Source of the DNA: Microbacterium sp. SA39
GTDB lineage: Bacteria; Actinomycetota; Actinomycetes; Actinomycetales; Microbacteriaceae
Length of the DNA: 64,000 bases
Reading direction: 5' to 3'
Assembly: GCF_000967865.1 (NCBI RefSeq)
Contig: NZ_JXRU01000035.1
Coordinates: 1 to 64,000, forward strand
Position numbers and translations under genes: made by a program. Position 1 is the stretch's first letter; the number at the start of each line of letters is the position of its first letter. The notes under the pieces were generated by a model. The model saw only the letters and a list, made by a program, of their open reading frames with translations, did no database searches and was not told the origin of the DNA. Below, in pieces: positions 3,461 to 8,916 of this stretch.

Positions 3461-4759
3461 CTACCGCCGGGCGAAGGCGAACCGCACCGGCGCGGTGTCC
3501 GGAGTCGCCGCCACGCACGTCCCCACCGGAAGCGCGGAGAGGTCCCAGTCTTCGACGACGTAGCCGTCGATGATCGACTCATTGAGGCCCTTGGAACGGA
3601 CCGACGAATCGAAGCGGATGATCTTCTTGTTTCGGCCGTACCGGTCTCGGACGAAGTCGCGCGAGGGCCCATCGAAGAGGCGGAATGAGAAGACCGTCCC
3701 GAACGCGGACAAGACAGACATCGCCATCTGCGGGCCGTACATCGCCTCAACCTGCTTCACGTTCTGCGTCCCCACGATGAAACGCAGGCCGAGAGAACGC
3801 CCGAAGTTCAACCCATTGGTCAGGTGCGCGAGCTCCGGGAGCAACGCGAACTCATCCAGAACGAACAGCACGCGACCAACCGTTCGCGTGCGCGACATCG
3901 CCTCTTGCATCGCGATGTCGAGCATCGTCTTAAAGATCGGTCCGAGCGTGGAGCCTGCGGCGATGTCGTACTCCAGGAACAGCGCATGCCCACCCTTCTC
4001 CCGGAGGAACCGCCGGATGGAGAAGTCTCCCGAACGCCCGAAGCTCGAGCGGAAGGATTCCTGAATGACCTGCTGCATGAACGCAACCGTCGCACCGGTG
4101 GACGGCGACCCTTCGCGGGCGATGTACTGCTTCACCCCACGGAGATCTTCGTTCCCGGGTCGATCGAGAACCTCATGCATTTCCGCGACGGACATTCCAG
4201 CTATGCCCCCGCGGATGTCTGCATTCGTGCGGACGACCGACTCTCGAAGCATTGCCGTGAGCAGAGCGACGAACAGGTCCCGGGCGGCGCTGACGAAGTA
4301 GATGTTGTCGCCGGAGTTCTGCAGCAGATTCGCGAACAGTCCGCTGCTCACCTCGTAGATCTCATCTTCCACGTCTCGGCCGTCGGGGGCCGCGCCAAAC
4401 TCCTCGAAGATGTTCCAGACGACGCTTTTCGCCTCGGGAGACTGCTGCACCGCGCCGACGACGACGTCGCCCGCTCGTCCGAACGCGTCGACGTAGTCAC
4501 CTTTCGTATCGAAGAAGACCAGGACATCGTCCTGCCCGAGACCTGCGCGGATCGATTCGACGAGGGCGTGCATTCCGACAGACTTCCCGGTTCCGATACC
4601 GCCGAGGAACAGGATATGCCGGCTGAGAATGGCGTCCGTCAGTCCGACTGACGTCCCCGCGATTCCGCGCACTCCGAACTCGCACGGCAGCGGGCCGATA
4701 TGACCGATCGCGTCTGCGAGGGATTGTCCCTCGATGACGTCCTGGATGACATTCACCAT
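3461..4759 (-). CDS. Soluble VirD4/TraG-like P-loop ATPase
   Basis: This 432-aa ATPase resembles type IV coupling proteins and HerA-like pumps. Walker A is GGIGTGKS at residues 53-60. Walker B is VLFVLDEF at 297-304, followed by the TraM-recognition-like region (leucine-rich stretch, [17 protein letters not shown] with a sensor glutamine, then YG). VirD4 proteins normally carry N-terminal membrane helices; none is seen, so this one is probably cytosolic or recruited by a partner. The ATG overlaps the end of the Glu-Pro repeat gene by 7 bp. No relaxase, VirB4 or mating-pair gene is visible nearby, so conjugation is unlikely to be its job. Confidence 0.8.
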
Positions 4760-5505
4760 CCGCTGGGTCCGAATTCTTCGTCGGGGTCCGGCTCGGACTC
4801 GGGTTTTGGCTCGGACTCAAGCTGAGGCTCAGGCTCCAGCTCCAGCTCCGGCTCCGGCTCCGGCTCAAGCTCCGTCTCCGTCTCAGGCTCAGGCTCAGGC
4901 TCAGGCGCAAGCTCAGGCTCAGGCTCAGGCTCAGGCTCAGGCTCAGGCTCAGGCGCAAGCGCAAGCTCAGGCTCAGGCTCAGGCTCAGGCTCCGGCTCAG
5001 GCTCGAAATCCGATGACGGTTCTGCGGGAGTGGACCTCGCTTCGCTCGGCGGAGCGTCCGTTTCGGGTTCGGTCTCTTGCTCGCTCGCACTCACACCTTC
5101 CGGCGTGCTCTCGCCGGGTCGATCGGCTTCCGCAAAATCAGCCGGCTCTCCCGTCGACGAGGTCATATCAAGGACATACAGCTCCCCATGGTGCGGGCCG
5201 TCGTCGACGGGCTCCGGTCCCTGGCCCGAGTAGTCGGCATTCGTGGCGTCGACCGCGTCCAGGCTTTCCCGGCGTTTGTCCTGCGCTTCTTTCGTCCCCG
5301 TGGTTCCTCGGGAGATGTCACGCGCGAACTTGCTGAGGTCTGCGGCGGATGGAGTGCGAAGCGAGCTCGGCGCGACTGCCGTCTGCGCTGGATGGCTCAA
5401 CGTCGGAGGGACCGACGCCGGGGCAGGCCCGGCGAAGCCCACCGTCACGCCGAGTTGGACCACCGCGGCCGCCTTCTGGAGCCGCTCGAACTTCCCTGCG
5501 GTCAT
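4753..5505 (-). CDS. Glu-Pro repeat protein of unknown function
   Basis: This is a 250-aa acidic protein. Residues 1-150 are Ala/Ser/Thr-rich and unfamiliar. Residues 165-245 are almost pure Glu-Pro dipeptide repeats interrupted by LALA, TETE and LELE blocks. Such EP repeats form stiff extended rods, as in TonB or spacer regions of wall proteins. No signal peptide or confident membrane helix is visible. The gene overlaps its upstream neighbour by 4 bp (ATGA) and its downstream neighbour by 7 bp, so the three proteins are probably made together. Function is unknown; a scaffold or spacer joining the RRE-like protein and the ATPase is a guess. Confidence 0.75.
4799..5006. repeat. Hexanucleotide tract encoding the Glu-Pro repeat
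   Basis: On the plus strand the tract is mainly repeats of GGCTCA with GGCTCC variants, covering about 200 bp. It lies in frame in the Glu-Pro gene, so each unit adds or removes two residues without a frameshift. Such a tract is prone to slippage and copy-number differences between strains. Confidence 0.85.
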
Positions 5506-7024: not shown

Positions 7025-7032
7025 GGTGCTCC

Positions 7033-8916
7033 TTATTCAGAAATGACGAAGTTGATCAATCGAGTGCCGCGGACCGTACGCCGTGGCACATTCAAGTCCG
7101 TGAGCCGCGGGCGCTCTCCCGGCGATTGCGGTTGGGTTCGGAAGCCGAGCAGCGCTCCTGACGCGATCGATACGTGAGCTTGCGGCAGCGTGAAAAGCGA
7201 CCCTCCCGGACGTATGGGCGCCGAGTACCGCACCGTGAACAATCCGGACCCGGGTACGGCCGCGGGCATTGCACTCGGCTGCCAGGCCACTGCAGAGACG
7301 GCCGGGCGGGAGTGACGAGCGATAAGCCGCTCGCGGTTGTTCACCAGCAGGAACACGCTGACGCCCAACGCGAGGAGGAGTGCCGCCATGCCTCCCATTC
7401 CCGCCGGGCTGAGTCCAGCAGCACGCACCTCGACAACTCCTCCGAACGGCGCGTCAGCGGACCCTCCGGCCAGCCACGAACCGAGAGGGAGCGAAAGCTG
7501 CACCGTTCCCGGTTCCTCGACAGCGTGAGCACCAGTGACGGCAGCCAATGAGGGGTTGAAGGTATAGGACCTGCTGCTCCAGAAGATATTCTCGCCCCCG
7601 CTCGGCACCACGGTGATGCCGCCGCTGCTGGCCCAGGCACTGTAGGCGGAATTGAACTCATCGAGAGTCTCGCCGGTGATATCGACGACGTACGTCGCCT
7701 CACCCCCAGCCTCCGACACGTTTATCGTTCCGACGTTCGCATCGGGCGCCAGCATTTCCTCGAATCCCTTTCCGACGAGGGCAGCCGCCTGAGAAGGAAC
7801 ACGGAAGGTCGTCCTGGCTGAAACGTCGCCGAACAAGCCGACTGTCACTTCCTGCGACGCCGACGTGAACGATGGCGTGTAGGACAGTTCAGCGATCTCG
7901 CCGCTGTCGGGGCGCATCGACAAGTTCGCCGGCGATACATCGGCGGACGCCGTGACGTCGTCGGTCAATGGCGGCGCTTCCACCGAACACACGTTCTCGC
8001 AACCGACAACGTTCGTGAGCGAGACGTCCAGCGAAGCGGGCGCCGCGGATGAGATGCGCGTGTCCAGCGCGAAGATCGACTCGTCTGCGTCCATGGCGAT
8101 GCCGGTCGAGTCAGCGATCTCATCCGCTTCGCCCGCGAAGCTCAGCTCCCACGTGTCGGAAACTCGGCGCAACGTCGCCGCCTCCGGGGTATGGGCGGTG
8201 AAGTAATCGTCATACAGCCGCTCGTCAACGCCATCGGCACCGACGAACGTGATGGTGCGTCGGATGAGTTCGAACTCCGAGATGTCGGTCGCCATCGTCA
8301 CGGCGTCGAACCCGTTGTCGTCGACGGCAGTCCCGACGATCGACCCGCTGGAGACATCGATTCCGACACCATCGAACGTTAACGCCGTGGTGCCGACCTC
8401 AGACATATTGTTGCGGTTCGACGGATCTACCACCCCGTCTTCCACCAGTCCGTCGAAAAGCCAACTCAACAACGCCTGAGAAGTGAAATTCTCCGCAATG
8501 GTCACCCCCGAAACGAGGGTCGAGTCCGCCACGTCGAACCCGATAGATGCGGTCGATCCGTCTCGGGAACCCAGGAGTCCGTAGACCACTTCTTTGTACT
8601 CGTCTGAGTCCACGAACGCCAGAGTGAGTGTCAGCATCAGAGAGCCGTCATCGAGGGTCGTGATGCCGCTATAGTCCATCGACTCAGGCAGATGCGCGCG
8701 GATCGAGGCATCCGCCCCCTCGGCTCCCCCGACCAGCTTGGCAGCGTCACTTGCGGGCAAGGTGAGTGTCATCGTTCGAGTCCCCGACCCATCACGGTTG
8801 ATCACCATCGCGGTATCCAGAACCGCACCACACCCCACGAGCAGCATCGCTGCGGCAAGTCCGACAAGCGCGAAAAGCACCCTGAGCACGCGGGGCTTAC
8901 CGACGTGCGCCTGCAT
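7033..8916 (-). CDS. LppM-like lipoprotein with C-terminal membrane anchor
   Basis: This 627-aa protein begins with a basic region and hydrophobic stretch ending in a lipobox, LLVGC, so it should be exported and lipidated. The region after the cysteine (LDTAMVINRDGSGTRTMTLTLP) is typical of LppM-like domains known from mycobacterial envelope lipoproteins. Similar strand-rich stretches recur later, suggesting at least two copies. A second hydrophobic helix near residue 530 (GMAALLLALGVSVFLLV) is followed by a basic tail, so the C-terminus should lie in the cytoplasm. ATG 8916 is preceded by a G-rich ribosome site. It is the first gene of the operon ending at 3461. Confidence 0.75.
   Translation of the reverse strand: MQAHVGKPRVLRVLFALVGLAAAMLLVGCGAVLDTAMVINRDGSGTRTMTLTLPASDAAKLVGGAEGADASIRAHLPESMDYSGITTLDDGSLMLTLTLAFVDSDEYKEVVYGLLGSRDGSTASIGFDVADSTLVSGVTIAENFTSQALLSWLFDGLVEDGVVDPSNRNNMSEVGTTALTFDGVGIDVSSGSIVGTAVDDNGFDAVTMATDISEFELIRRTITFVGADGVDERLYDDYFTAHTPEAATLRRVSDTWELSFAGEADEIADSTGIAMDADESIFALDTRISSAAPASLDVSLTNVVGCENVCSVEAPPLTDDVTASADVSPANLSMRPDSGEIAELSYTPSFTSASQEVTVGLFGDVSARTTFRVPSQAAALVGKGFEEMLAPDANVGTINVSEAGGEATYVVDITGETLDEFNSAYSAWASSGGITVVPSGGENIFWSSRSYTFNPSLAAVTGAHAVEEPGTVQLSLPLGSWLAGGSADAPFGGVVEVRAAGLSPAGMGGMAALLLALGVSVFLLVNNRERLIARHSRPAVSAVAWQPSAMPAAVPGSGLFTVRYSAPIRPGGSLFTLPQAHVSIASGALLGFRTQPQSPGERPRLTDLNVPRRTVRGTRLINFVISE

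Follow-up and report, generated by a model that had tools for sequence, protein, structure and literature searches.

A rare gene module in Microbacterium sp. SA39 pairs a soluble VirD4-type ATPase with a PH-like membrane protein and exchangeable tail-bearing partners

Introduction

What role does an ATPase of the VirD4 family play in an operon that also encodes a lipoprotein, a membrane protein, a winged-helix-like protein and a rod rich in glutamate and proline? The question is raised by positions 3461–8916, minus strand, of the first 64,000 nucleotides of contig NZ_JXRU01000035.1 of Microbacterium sp. SA39 (hereafter the window). A first-pass annotation had placed this operon outside any known system; we, too, are aware of no system in which these parts are combined, and no description of the combination or of its relatives appeared among the matches listed from open-licence literature (subscription papers lie outside that body). 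The reading to which we lean, tentatively and with rather less than even confidence, is that a membrane-anchored motor takes tail-tagged clients and probably exports them, in the manner of type IV secretion system (T4SS) coupling without a T4SS.

Results

A three-gene core with exchangeable partners

Transcription in the window would run from the gene for an LppM-like lipoprotein (7033–8916, 627 aa) through those for a PH-like membrane protein (6218–7024, 268 aa), an RRE/PqqD-like protein (5502–6116, 204 aa) and a Glu-Pro rod (4753–5505, 250 aa) to that for a soluble TrwB/VirD4-family ATPase (3461–4759, 432 aa), all on the minus strand. The five frames are open and co-directional, as first described, with gaps of 8 nt (LppM/PH) and 101 nt (PH/RRE) by their coordinates and overlaps of 4 nt (RRE/rod) and 7 nt (rod/ATPase) among the last three. 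GC content at the third codon position exceeds that at the second in 5/5 frames (only such frames were retained). Sequence homologues in other genera were found for four of the five proteins, the exception being the rod; these frames are therefore more than chance. The single good promoter that had been proposed was not recovered by a sigma-70 consensus scan of 3300–9300, which covers that promoter type only.

Eight actinobacterial loci (the window and the loci that we number L005, L006, L007, L008, L018, L022 and L023) show which of these genes travel together. LppM-like, PH-like and ATPase genes occur together in all eight. RRE-like genes are present in six and were not found in L006 and L022, both of which have a rod-like protein; a rod-like protein is likewise present in six, and in L008 and L023 an RRE-like gene lies directly before the ATPase gene. 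This pattern suggests that three genes form the core and that the other partners can be exchanged. The expectation of the first-pass annotation that the genes would stay together in relatives thus holds for the LppM/PH/ATPase trio and not for five genes as an indivisible set, and, because the rod and the RRE-like protein are each found without the other, the rod is not the obligatory link between RRE-like protein and ATPase that it had been taken for. What survives of the envelope secretion or assembly machine proposed at that stage is an envelope-associated motor module; the rod as its necessary bridge does not.

A soluble ATPase apart from conjugative coupling proteins

The window ATPase matches the Pfam families PF10412 (E 2.6e-40) and PF02534 (E 1e-11), and its best PDB sequence matches are TrwB structures (1e9r/1gl6). 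Conserved alignment columns hold its Walker A motif (GGIGTGKS, residues 53–60, 4580–4603, minus strand) and Walker B region (VLFVLDE, residues 297–303, 3851–3871, minus strand). Hydropathy gives it one internal hydrophobic stretch and no N-terminal membrane helix, in agreement with its earlier description as soluble and VirD4/TraG-like.

Membership of these two families also speaks for a different origin, in which the ATPase is a coupling protein left over from a conjugative element that has decayed, and so do the integrated element that adjoins the operon at 9160–18458, the plasmid-borne members in Curtobacterium and Paenibacillus, and the conjugative typing of 195 of the 223 plasmid records with an ATPase match. 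The close matches among those records are two from Curtobacterium (66–67% identity) and two from Paenibacillus (38%), the remaining listed matches having lower identity than these four. We nevertheless judge this origin very improbable. The branch between the system ATPases and conjugative type IV coupling proteins (T4CPs) is supported at 100/100 in two trees that held five and four T4CPs, with long branches in several places and some of the deep forks left open, so that the grouping with conjugative coupling proteins for which the first-pass annotation had allowed was not found among the T4CPs tested. N-terminal membrane helices were seen by hydropathy in 0/14 system ATPases (a set that excludes L083–L085) and in 5/5 T4CPs. 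The actinobacterial ATPases share 65–66% identity with the window ATPase, and the Paenibacillus ATPases fall next to the actinobacterial ones in both trees (97/96 and 99/99). The five T4CPs fetched from the 223 records each have a TrwC/TraI/MobF-type relaxase gene next to them or near, whereas the SA39 genome gave no TrwC/MobF match in a search of that one relaxase family with a positive Escherichia coli control, and the plasmids of L018, L019 and L073 are classed as non-mobilizable in PLSDB. The claim that the operon is not standard conjugation is upheld by the separate branch; the lack of a relaxase, one of the grounds first given for it, extends to the MobF/TrwC type alone (0 matches).

Two haloarchaeal plasmids (L020 and L021) carry related TrwB-like ATPases that form a separate branch, and both of these homologues have N-terminal membrane helices by hydropathy. 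A phage origin was considered and set aside: 50,697 phage records contained no ATPase relative, and of 23 stretches in viral contigs that fit a peptide pattern none was confirmed.

The PH-like protein as a partner across phyla

Hydropathy assigns three membrane helices to the PH-like protein, which bears out the membrane-protein part of its first label. Its PH identity is suggested by weak sequence matches (Pfam bPH_3 at E 0.23 for the window protein; GRAM at 0.003 and bPH_3 at 0.035 for a relative). A C-terminal motif at residues 253–263 (6236–6268, minus strand) is apparent in a 12-row alignment, with G253, I256, D258, Q260 and G263 invariant, and is shared by Firmicutes members. A profile of the actinobacterial proteins, run against 766 open reading frames (ORFs), finds the proteins of L011, L019, L073, L010 and L012 at E 2.5e-7 to 5.4e-5 (next match 0.018; L040 is not among the eight matches listed), and a Firmicutes profile in turn finds 8/8 actinobacterial ones at E 2.5e-8 to 3.4e-6 (next match 0.94). 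The gene accompanies that of the ATPase in 14/17 loci, L009 and L013 (short contigs) being left out; the profile behind this count is partly circular, but the separate phylum profiles still find each other. As judged from these sequence profiles, the PH-like protein and the ATPase are partners in more than one phylum, their pairing being seen again in Paenibacillus and Clostridia. LppM-like proteins are not claimed for Firmicutes, where the best match had E 0.95.

The gene set is rare and horizontally spread among bacteria. The ATPase is present in 3/398 Microbacteriaceae genomes, that of SA39 included, and the PH-like profile finds the same three, as does the system type of LppM-like protein; the LppM-like profile finds 6/398, namely those three and three of one other genus with a distant relative. 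Since sequences from each of the three positive genomes went into these profiles, along with others, what is informative is that no PH-like protein was found in the rest of the 398. A search with a single RRE sequence found the SA39 genome only among 199, the RRE-bearing genome G329 being first sampled in the 398-genome search. ATPase relatives at E <= 1e-60 occur in 2/246 actinobacterial genomes, in 3/200 genomes in the family of L012 and in 4/115 in that of L011, the centre genome counted each time.

The distant LppM-like relatives in the three genomes of the other Microbacteriaceae genus (L065, L066 and L067) stand beside genes that look by eye to be of cytochrome-biogenesis type, and those loci gave no tblastn matches to other window proteins. 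The Cryobacterium copy (L006) lies within an apparent flagellar cluster (1975–5228 and 11737–20930) with flagellin-, FliD- and FliF/FliG-like genes, recognized by eye.

Recurring tails on unlike heads

The Glu-Pro rod of the window has a short head without a membrane helix (hydropathy), an acidic disordered tail and a tryptophan tip; the tail, residues 160–250 (4756–5028, minus strand), runs to the tip and holds 34 E, 29 P and 1 K/R, for a net charge of −36. The protein has no tblastn match in other loci, and its counterparts were counted by position, composition and tip alone. So counted, W is last or next to last in 6/6 actinobacterial rods (W in the window, L006, L007 and L022; WG/WA in L005 and L018), and W-ending proteins make up 4/180 picked ORFs, rods included. 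K/R account for 0–2% of the last 60 residues in the actinobacterial rods and likewise in the Paenibacillus protein (L019), whose acidic EP-rich tail ends in EPL. EP-repeat DNA elsewhere in the genome (L002 and L003) yielded no W-tipped rod among the ORFs picked there.

Members from Clostridia end in GMGM, GMSV, GQSM or GMGI, and in two loci one tail is carried by unlike proteins. In L011, 119 C-terminal residues match at 55% (SEG-masked E 5e-22) between a 706-aa ORF, compared as 682 aa, and a protein of 1293 aa, and a second match of 51 residues (9e-5) lies further up, in the low-complexity part; their heads have no SEG-masked match to each other, and a third protein, of 84 aa, ends in SSGMGM. 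In L041, proteins of 103 and 359 aa have 33 residues in common (E 4e-8) and end in DGMDV and DGMDSDMEI, one of the two being metallopeptidase-like and the other a small protein. Effector-like heads are found near ATPases more distant from that of the window. Proteins with an HExxH motif, noted by eye and without a Pfam peptidase match, lie directly upstream of the ATPase gene in L037 and L041 and one gene off in L085 (L037/L085, E 3e-9; L037/L041, 7e-4; L041/L085, 0.023). The L085 protein, examined after the idea of a tail had formed, ends as expected, in MDNGLSM. Directly upstream of the L083 ATPase gene is a Tox-GHH gene (E 1e-16), itself preceded by a SUKH-1 gene (E 1.2e-12).

Two further observations concern these loci. 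SUKH-1, Tox-GHH with a low-complexity tail and ATPase stand in a row at 9178–11879 of L083, with kinase and vWA genes farther on. Near the Clostridia ATPases is a small protein, zinc-ribbon-like by eye (L010, 1248–1859; L011, 4822–5445; L085, 137–733), with 50% identity between L010 and L011 and a weak match to L085 (E 4e-4).

The VirD4-type motor family recruits its substrates through C-terminal signals. Because a recurring tail on changing heads stands next to a motor of this family, we read the tailed proteins as tagged clients. A parallel is DotM, which, according to the parts of PMC5802825 that deal with it, binds acidic Glu-rich C-terminal signals within a VirD4-type coupling complex. 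The rod might instead be a tether or envelope organizer, a structural rope that holds or spaces the ATPase at the membrane with no export involved; the heads of the actinobacterial rods, which by eye are hydrophobic or amphipathic with no enzyme recognized (Pfam was run on the window rod only), and the variation in protein length from 243 to 577 aa would suit such a rope. We think this quite unlikely, since two loci keep the motor without an EP-rich rod, the heads in other lineages are unlike and include a nuclease toxin and HExxH proteins, and one tail recurring under varied heads is what tagged clients would show. The rod is more suggestive of a client, or of a tether, whose C-terminal tail makes contact with the motor.

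The lipoprotein and the RRE-like protein

The LppM-like protein begins with a signal peptide and an invariant cysteine 29 (lipobox, judged by eye), and would consist of an ectodomain followed by a C-terminal membrane helix and a cytosolic tail. Its label is well supported by fold comparison: Foldseek matched a model (pLDDT 69.6) to LppM 2nc8 at E 3.6e-4 (prob 1.00), and VIA-align placed residues 341–507 (7396–7896, minus strand) on 2nc8 with Z 8.3 over 147 residues at rmsd 4.4. On this model the LppM folded domain is present; the protein has no Pfam match, and a sequence profile search gave no LppM chain. Ribophorin I supplied the best Foldseek rows (E 1e-7 to 6e-7), which were not used given their rmsd of 17–19 and TM of ~0.16; in VIA-align these rows tie with 2nc8, but at rmsd ~15.

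The model of the RRE-like protein (built from 10 rows, pLDDT 89.6) resembles RRE-type winged helices over its C-terminal residues 98–201 (5514–5825, minus strand), to which rows for TbiB1, lasso B1, PqqD, ThcOx, TigE and TruD align. TbiB1 scores Z 7.4, 6jx3 7.2 and PqqD 5sxy 7.1; as a class, RRE/PqqD structures (Z 5.1–7.4) stay below two other winged-helix proteins (8.3–8.7) and below the caution line of 8, and Foldseek gave no match with E under 0.001. PqqD is also the best PDB profile match of the window protein, weakly (E 0.11), and Pfam reports PqqD at E 0.048 in L008. Some rows align to the N-terminal half, and the protein is probably a tandem winged helix. The PqqD/RRE-like label therefore keeps moderate support from the modelled fold, as a resemblance and not as proof, given that other winged helices score higher.

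An RRE-like fold in the C-terminal half is what would be expected if the operon were a cluster for ribosomally synthesized and post-translationally modified peptides (RiPPs) or other peptide maturation, with the RRE-like protein recruiting a precursor peptide. We find this scarcely credible: no modifying enzyme family was found among the operon proteins scanned (five with Pfam, four with NCBIfam), and L006 and L022 yielded no RRE-like genes. The RRE-like genes are multiplied in the Clavibacter-type loci, with six in L008, four in L007 (one partial) and five in L023. Those of L008 are divergent (6870–14012), and an opposite-strand gene, of restriction type by eye, lies between the last two. A 770-aa ORF in L023 (7388–9700) would fuse ATPase and RRE, but at the C-terminus its ATPase part stops resembling the related ATPases immediately ahead of the junction; a frameshift is the probable cause, and the ORF was not used. 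Two small genes downstream of the ATPase in Paenibacillus, winged-helix-like by eye, were tried as RRE-like relatives and are not supported (hmmsearch best E 4.6; hhalign probability under 1%).

Export of tail-tagged clients or an intracellular conflict system

In the mechanism that we propose, the ATPase, presumably a hexamer, would dock on the membrane from the inside by way of the PH-like protein; in actinobacteria the site would be completed by the LppM-like lipoprotein, which would have an external ectodomain, a membrane helix of its own and a tail in the cytosol. Operon-encoded clients, in which a head is followed by a long disordered tail and, at the very C-terminus, by a short tip of hydrophobic or aromatic character, would be captured by their tails, either by the motor or by its membrane partner, and would then probably be exported. 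RRE-like proteins, where present, could be peptide-binding adaptors or client-specific chaperones, multiplied in Clavibacter, and the effectors would vary by head (metallopeptidase-like, Tox-GHH with immunity, coiled or beta-rich). In its most specific form, this reading makes a soluble VirD4-type hexamer on a PH-like protein an undescribed secretion system of monoderms, with a C-terminal tail-and-tip signal, head-swapped effectors and RRE adaptors in actinobacteria, a form that we consider possible and hold with considerable doubt.

Several results weigh against export of tagged clients. None of the operon genes encodes a channel protein, no search having been made beyond the operon. Searches did not recover the PH-like partner in L041, L037 or L014 (the ATPase gene of L014 is broken), or in 3/3 loci examined later (L083–L085), where the proposed mechanism would expect it; the enzyme- and toxin-headed cases thus all belong to loci in which it was not seen. 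The nine non-Microbacteriaceae loci scanned yielded neither LppM-like nor RRE-like proteins. The window rod gave nothing but low complexity in Pfam, and reading the other actinobacterial rods by eye revealed no head of toxin or enzyme type. The rods show no SEG-masked mutual similarity at E 1e-3 that would point to a common origin. L008 and L023 gave no EP-rich rod, though one of other composition may lie elsewhere in these two loci, and no tail protein lies beside the ATPase in L040 and L084. The tail of the L083 Tox-GHH protein is basic and lacks the shared tip, which fits the idea of effectors and not that of the tip. The window ATPase (net charge −10) and RRE-like protein (−18) are both acidic, so it is not evident that charge would hold a tail that is itself acidic. 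Finally, GMG[MI] tips occur at 14 places in eight Clostridia genomes, nine of them at true stops (3 locus genes, a GroEL-like and an oxidoreductase-like gene, and 4 short frames or no notable frame), and this search, which covered a single type of tip in those eight genomes, did not turn up clients scattered outside the loci.

The main rival of export is an intracellular or inner-membrane conflict (defence) system, in which the ATPase would be motor or switch and the tail proteins effectors activated inside the cell; it holds that place because distant relatives lie near vWA, PP2C-like, kinase or Hsp70-like genes. The vWA, PP2C-like and kinase genes are near L037 and L083 and the Hsp70-like/GrpE genes near L084, and the sections of PMC7159879 concerned describe vWA–PP2C–kinase triads and chaperones in NTP-dependent conflict systems. 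A defence role also draws on the PADLOC match of mad8, a gene of the MADS defence system, to the window ATPase (3.1e-11, the sole match among four operon proteins scanned), on the patchy spread in genomes (3/398, 2/246, 3/200 and 4/115, centre genomes included) and on a STAND-type NTPase, below its family cut-off, ~2 kb from the L022 operon. On the other side, a lipoprotein and a PH-like membrane protein accompany the ATPase in 8/8 loci of the window branch, the toxin/immunity pair of L083 is more typical of interbacterial delivery, and the phage and viral searches described above confirmed no ATPase relatives; we thus consider a conflict system unlikely, if a serious contender. No such triad stood out when the ORF lists of the actinobacterial loci were read by eye.

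If export of tail-tagged clients is true, monoderms gain a further secretion machine, one that reads a modular signal in the tail, and RRE-like domains acquire a function beyond RiPP maturation; if the conflict system is true, a VirD4-type motor gains a new role in immunity. On either reading, the PH-like/ATPase pair is a well-defined handle for searches.

Genomic surroundings of the operon

The GC content of the operon (0.636) is below that of the chromosome on either side (0.681 and 0.681) and that of the neighbouring element is 0.650. This element, integrated in tRNA-Tyr at 9160–18458, adjoins the operon without including it: the distal copy of the tRNA-Tyr end (att, 9160–9193, plus strand) marks the element boundary upstream of the operon, and the operon starts ~240 bp beyond that copy and hence lies outside the element. 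The other copy is at 18458–18491, with the tRNA-Tyr gene at 18460–18542, and the element encodes an integrase (17141–18394), an IrrE-type peptidase (10212–10751) and a ParA-like ATPase (12702–13721). Before the insertion, the operon would have been close to the tRNA-Tyr gene. ARAGORN reports a tRNA-Arg at 17786–17880, within the integrase frame, which is probably a false call. Farther along the window are a DUF3800 protein (57529–58242) and a Fic-domain protein (60588–61781).

Comparison with known systems

Single parts of the module have known counterparts. Residues 341–507 of the window lipoprotein share the fold of mycobacterial LppM (Rv2171), but the protein, at 627 aa, has extra beta-rich parts and no Pfam match. 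In tails of the type found in single-stranded DNA-binding protein (SSB), a disordered acidic linker ends in a short conserved hydrophobic C-tip that docks partners; the acidic disordered tail and short tip seen here are alike in layout, and the tail sequences look unrelated. NTP-dependent conflict systems (Kaur et al. 2020, PMC7159879) resemble the module in the vWA–PP2C–kinase genes near L037 and L083 and in their patchy spread, whereas the triad section of that paper describes no VirD4-type ATPase and 'VirD4' appears nowhere in its main text.

The coupling complexes of T4SSs (VirD4/TrwB/TraD; DotL–DotM) share the PF10412 motor family with Walker A and B motifs, and the portions of the DotM paper (PMC5802825) that bear on this have DotM recruiting acidic Glu-rich C-terminal signals. 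The window ATPase differs in having no N-terminal helices, a separate branch and no MobF/TrwC in its genome, and its operon adds PH-like, LppM-like and RRE-like partners.

Substrates of type VII secretion systems (T7SSs; ESX) are marked near the C-terminus. These systems, too, use a motor of the HerA–FtsK superfamily in monoderms, and in the passages of PMC3482391 that treat it a PH-like-fold accessory protein (EsaC) accompanies the FtsK/HerA motor in T7SS neighbourhoods. The window motor is not EccC-type (19.4 bits with NCBIfam EccCb against a cut-off of 346.6). Conjugation and type VII secretion thus each fail at least one defining feature tested, and, without claiming novelty for the mechanism, we regard the gene module as new in kind on the basis of open-licence literature.

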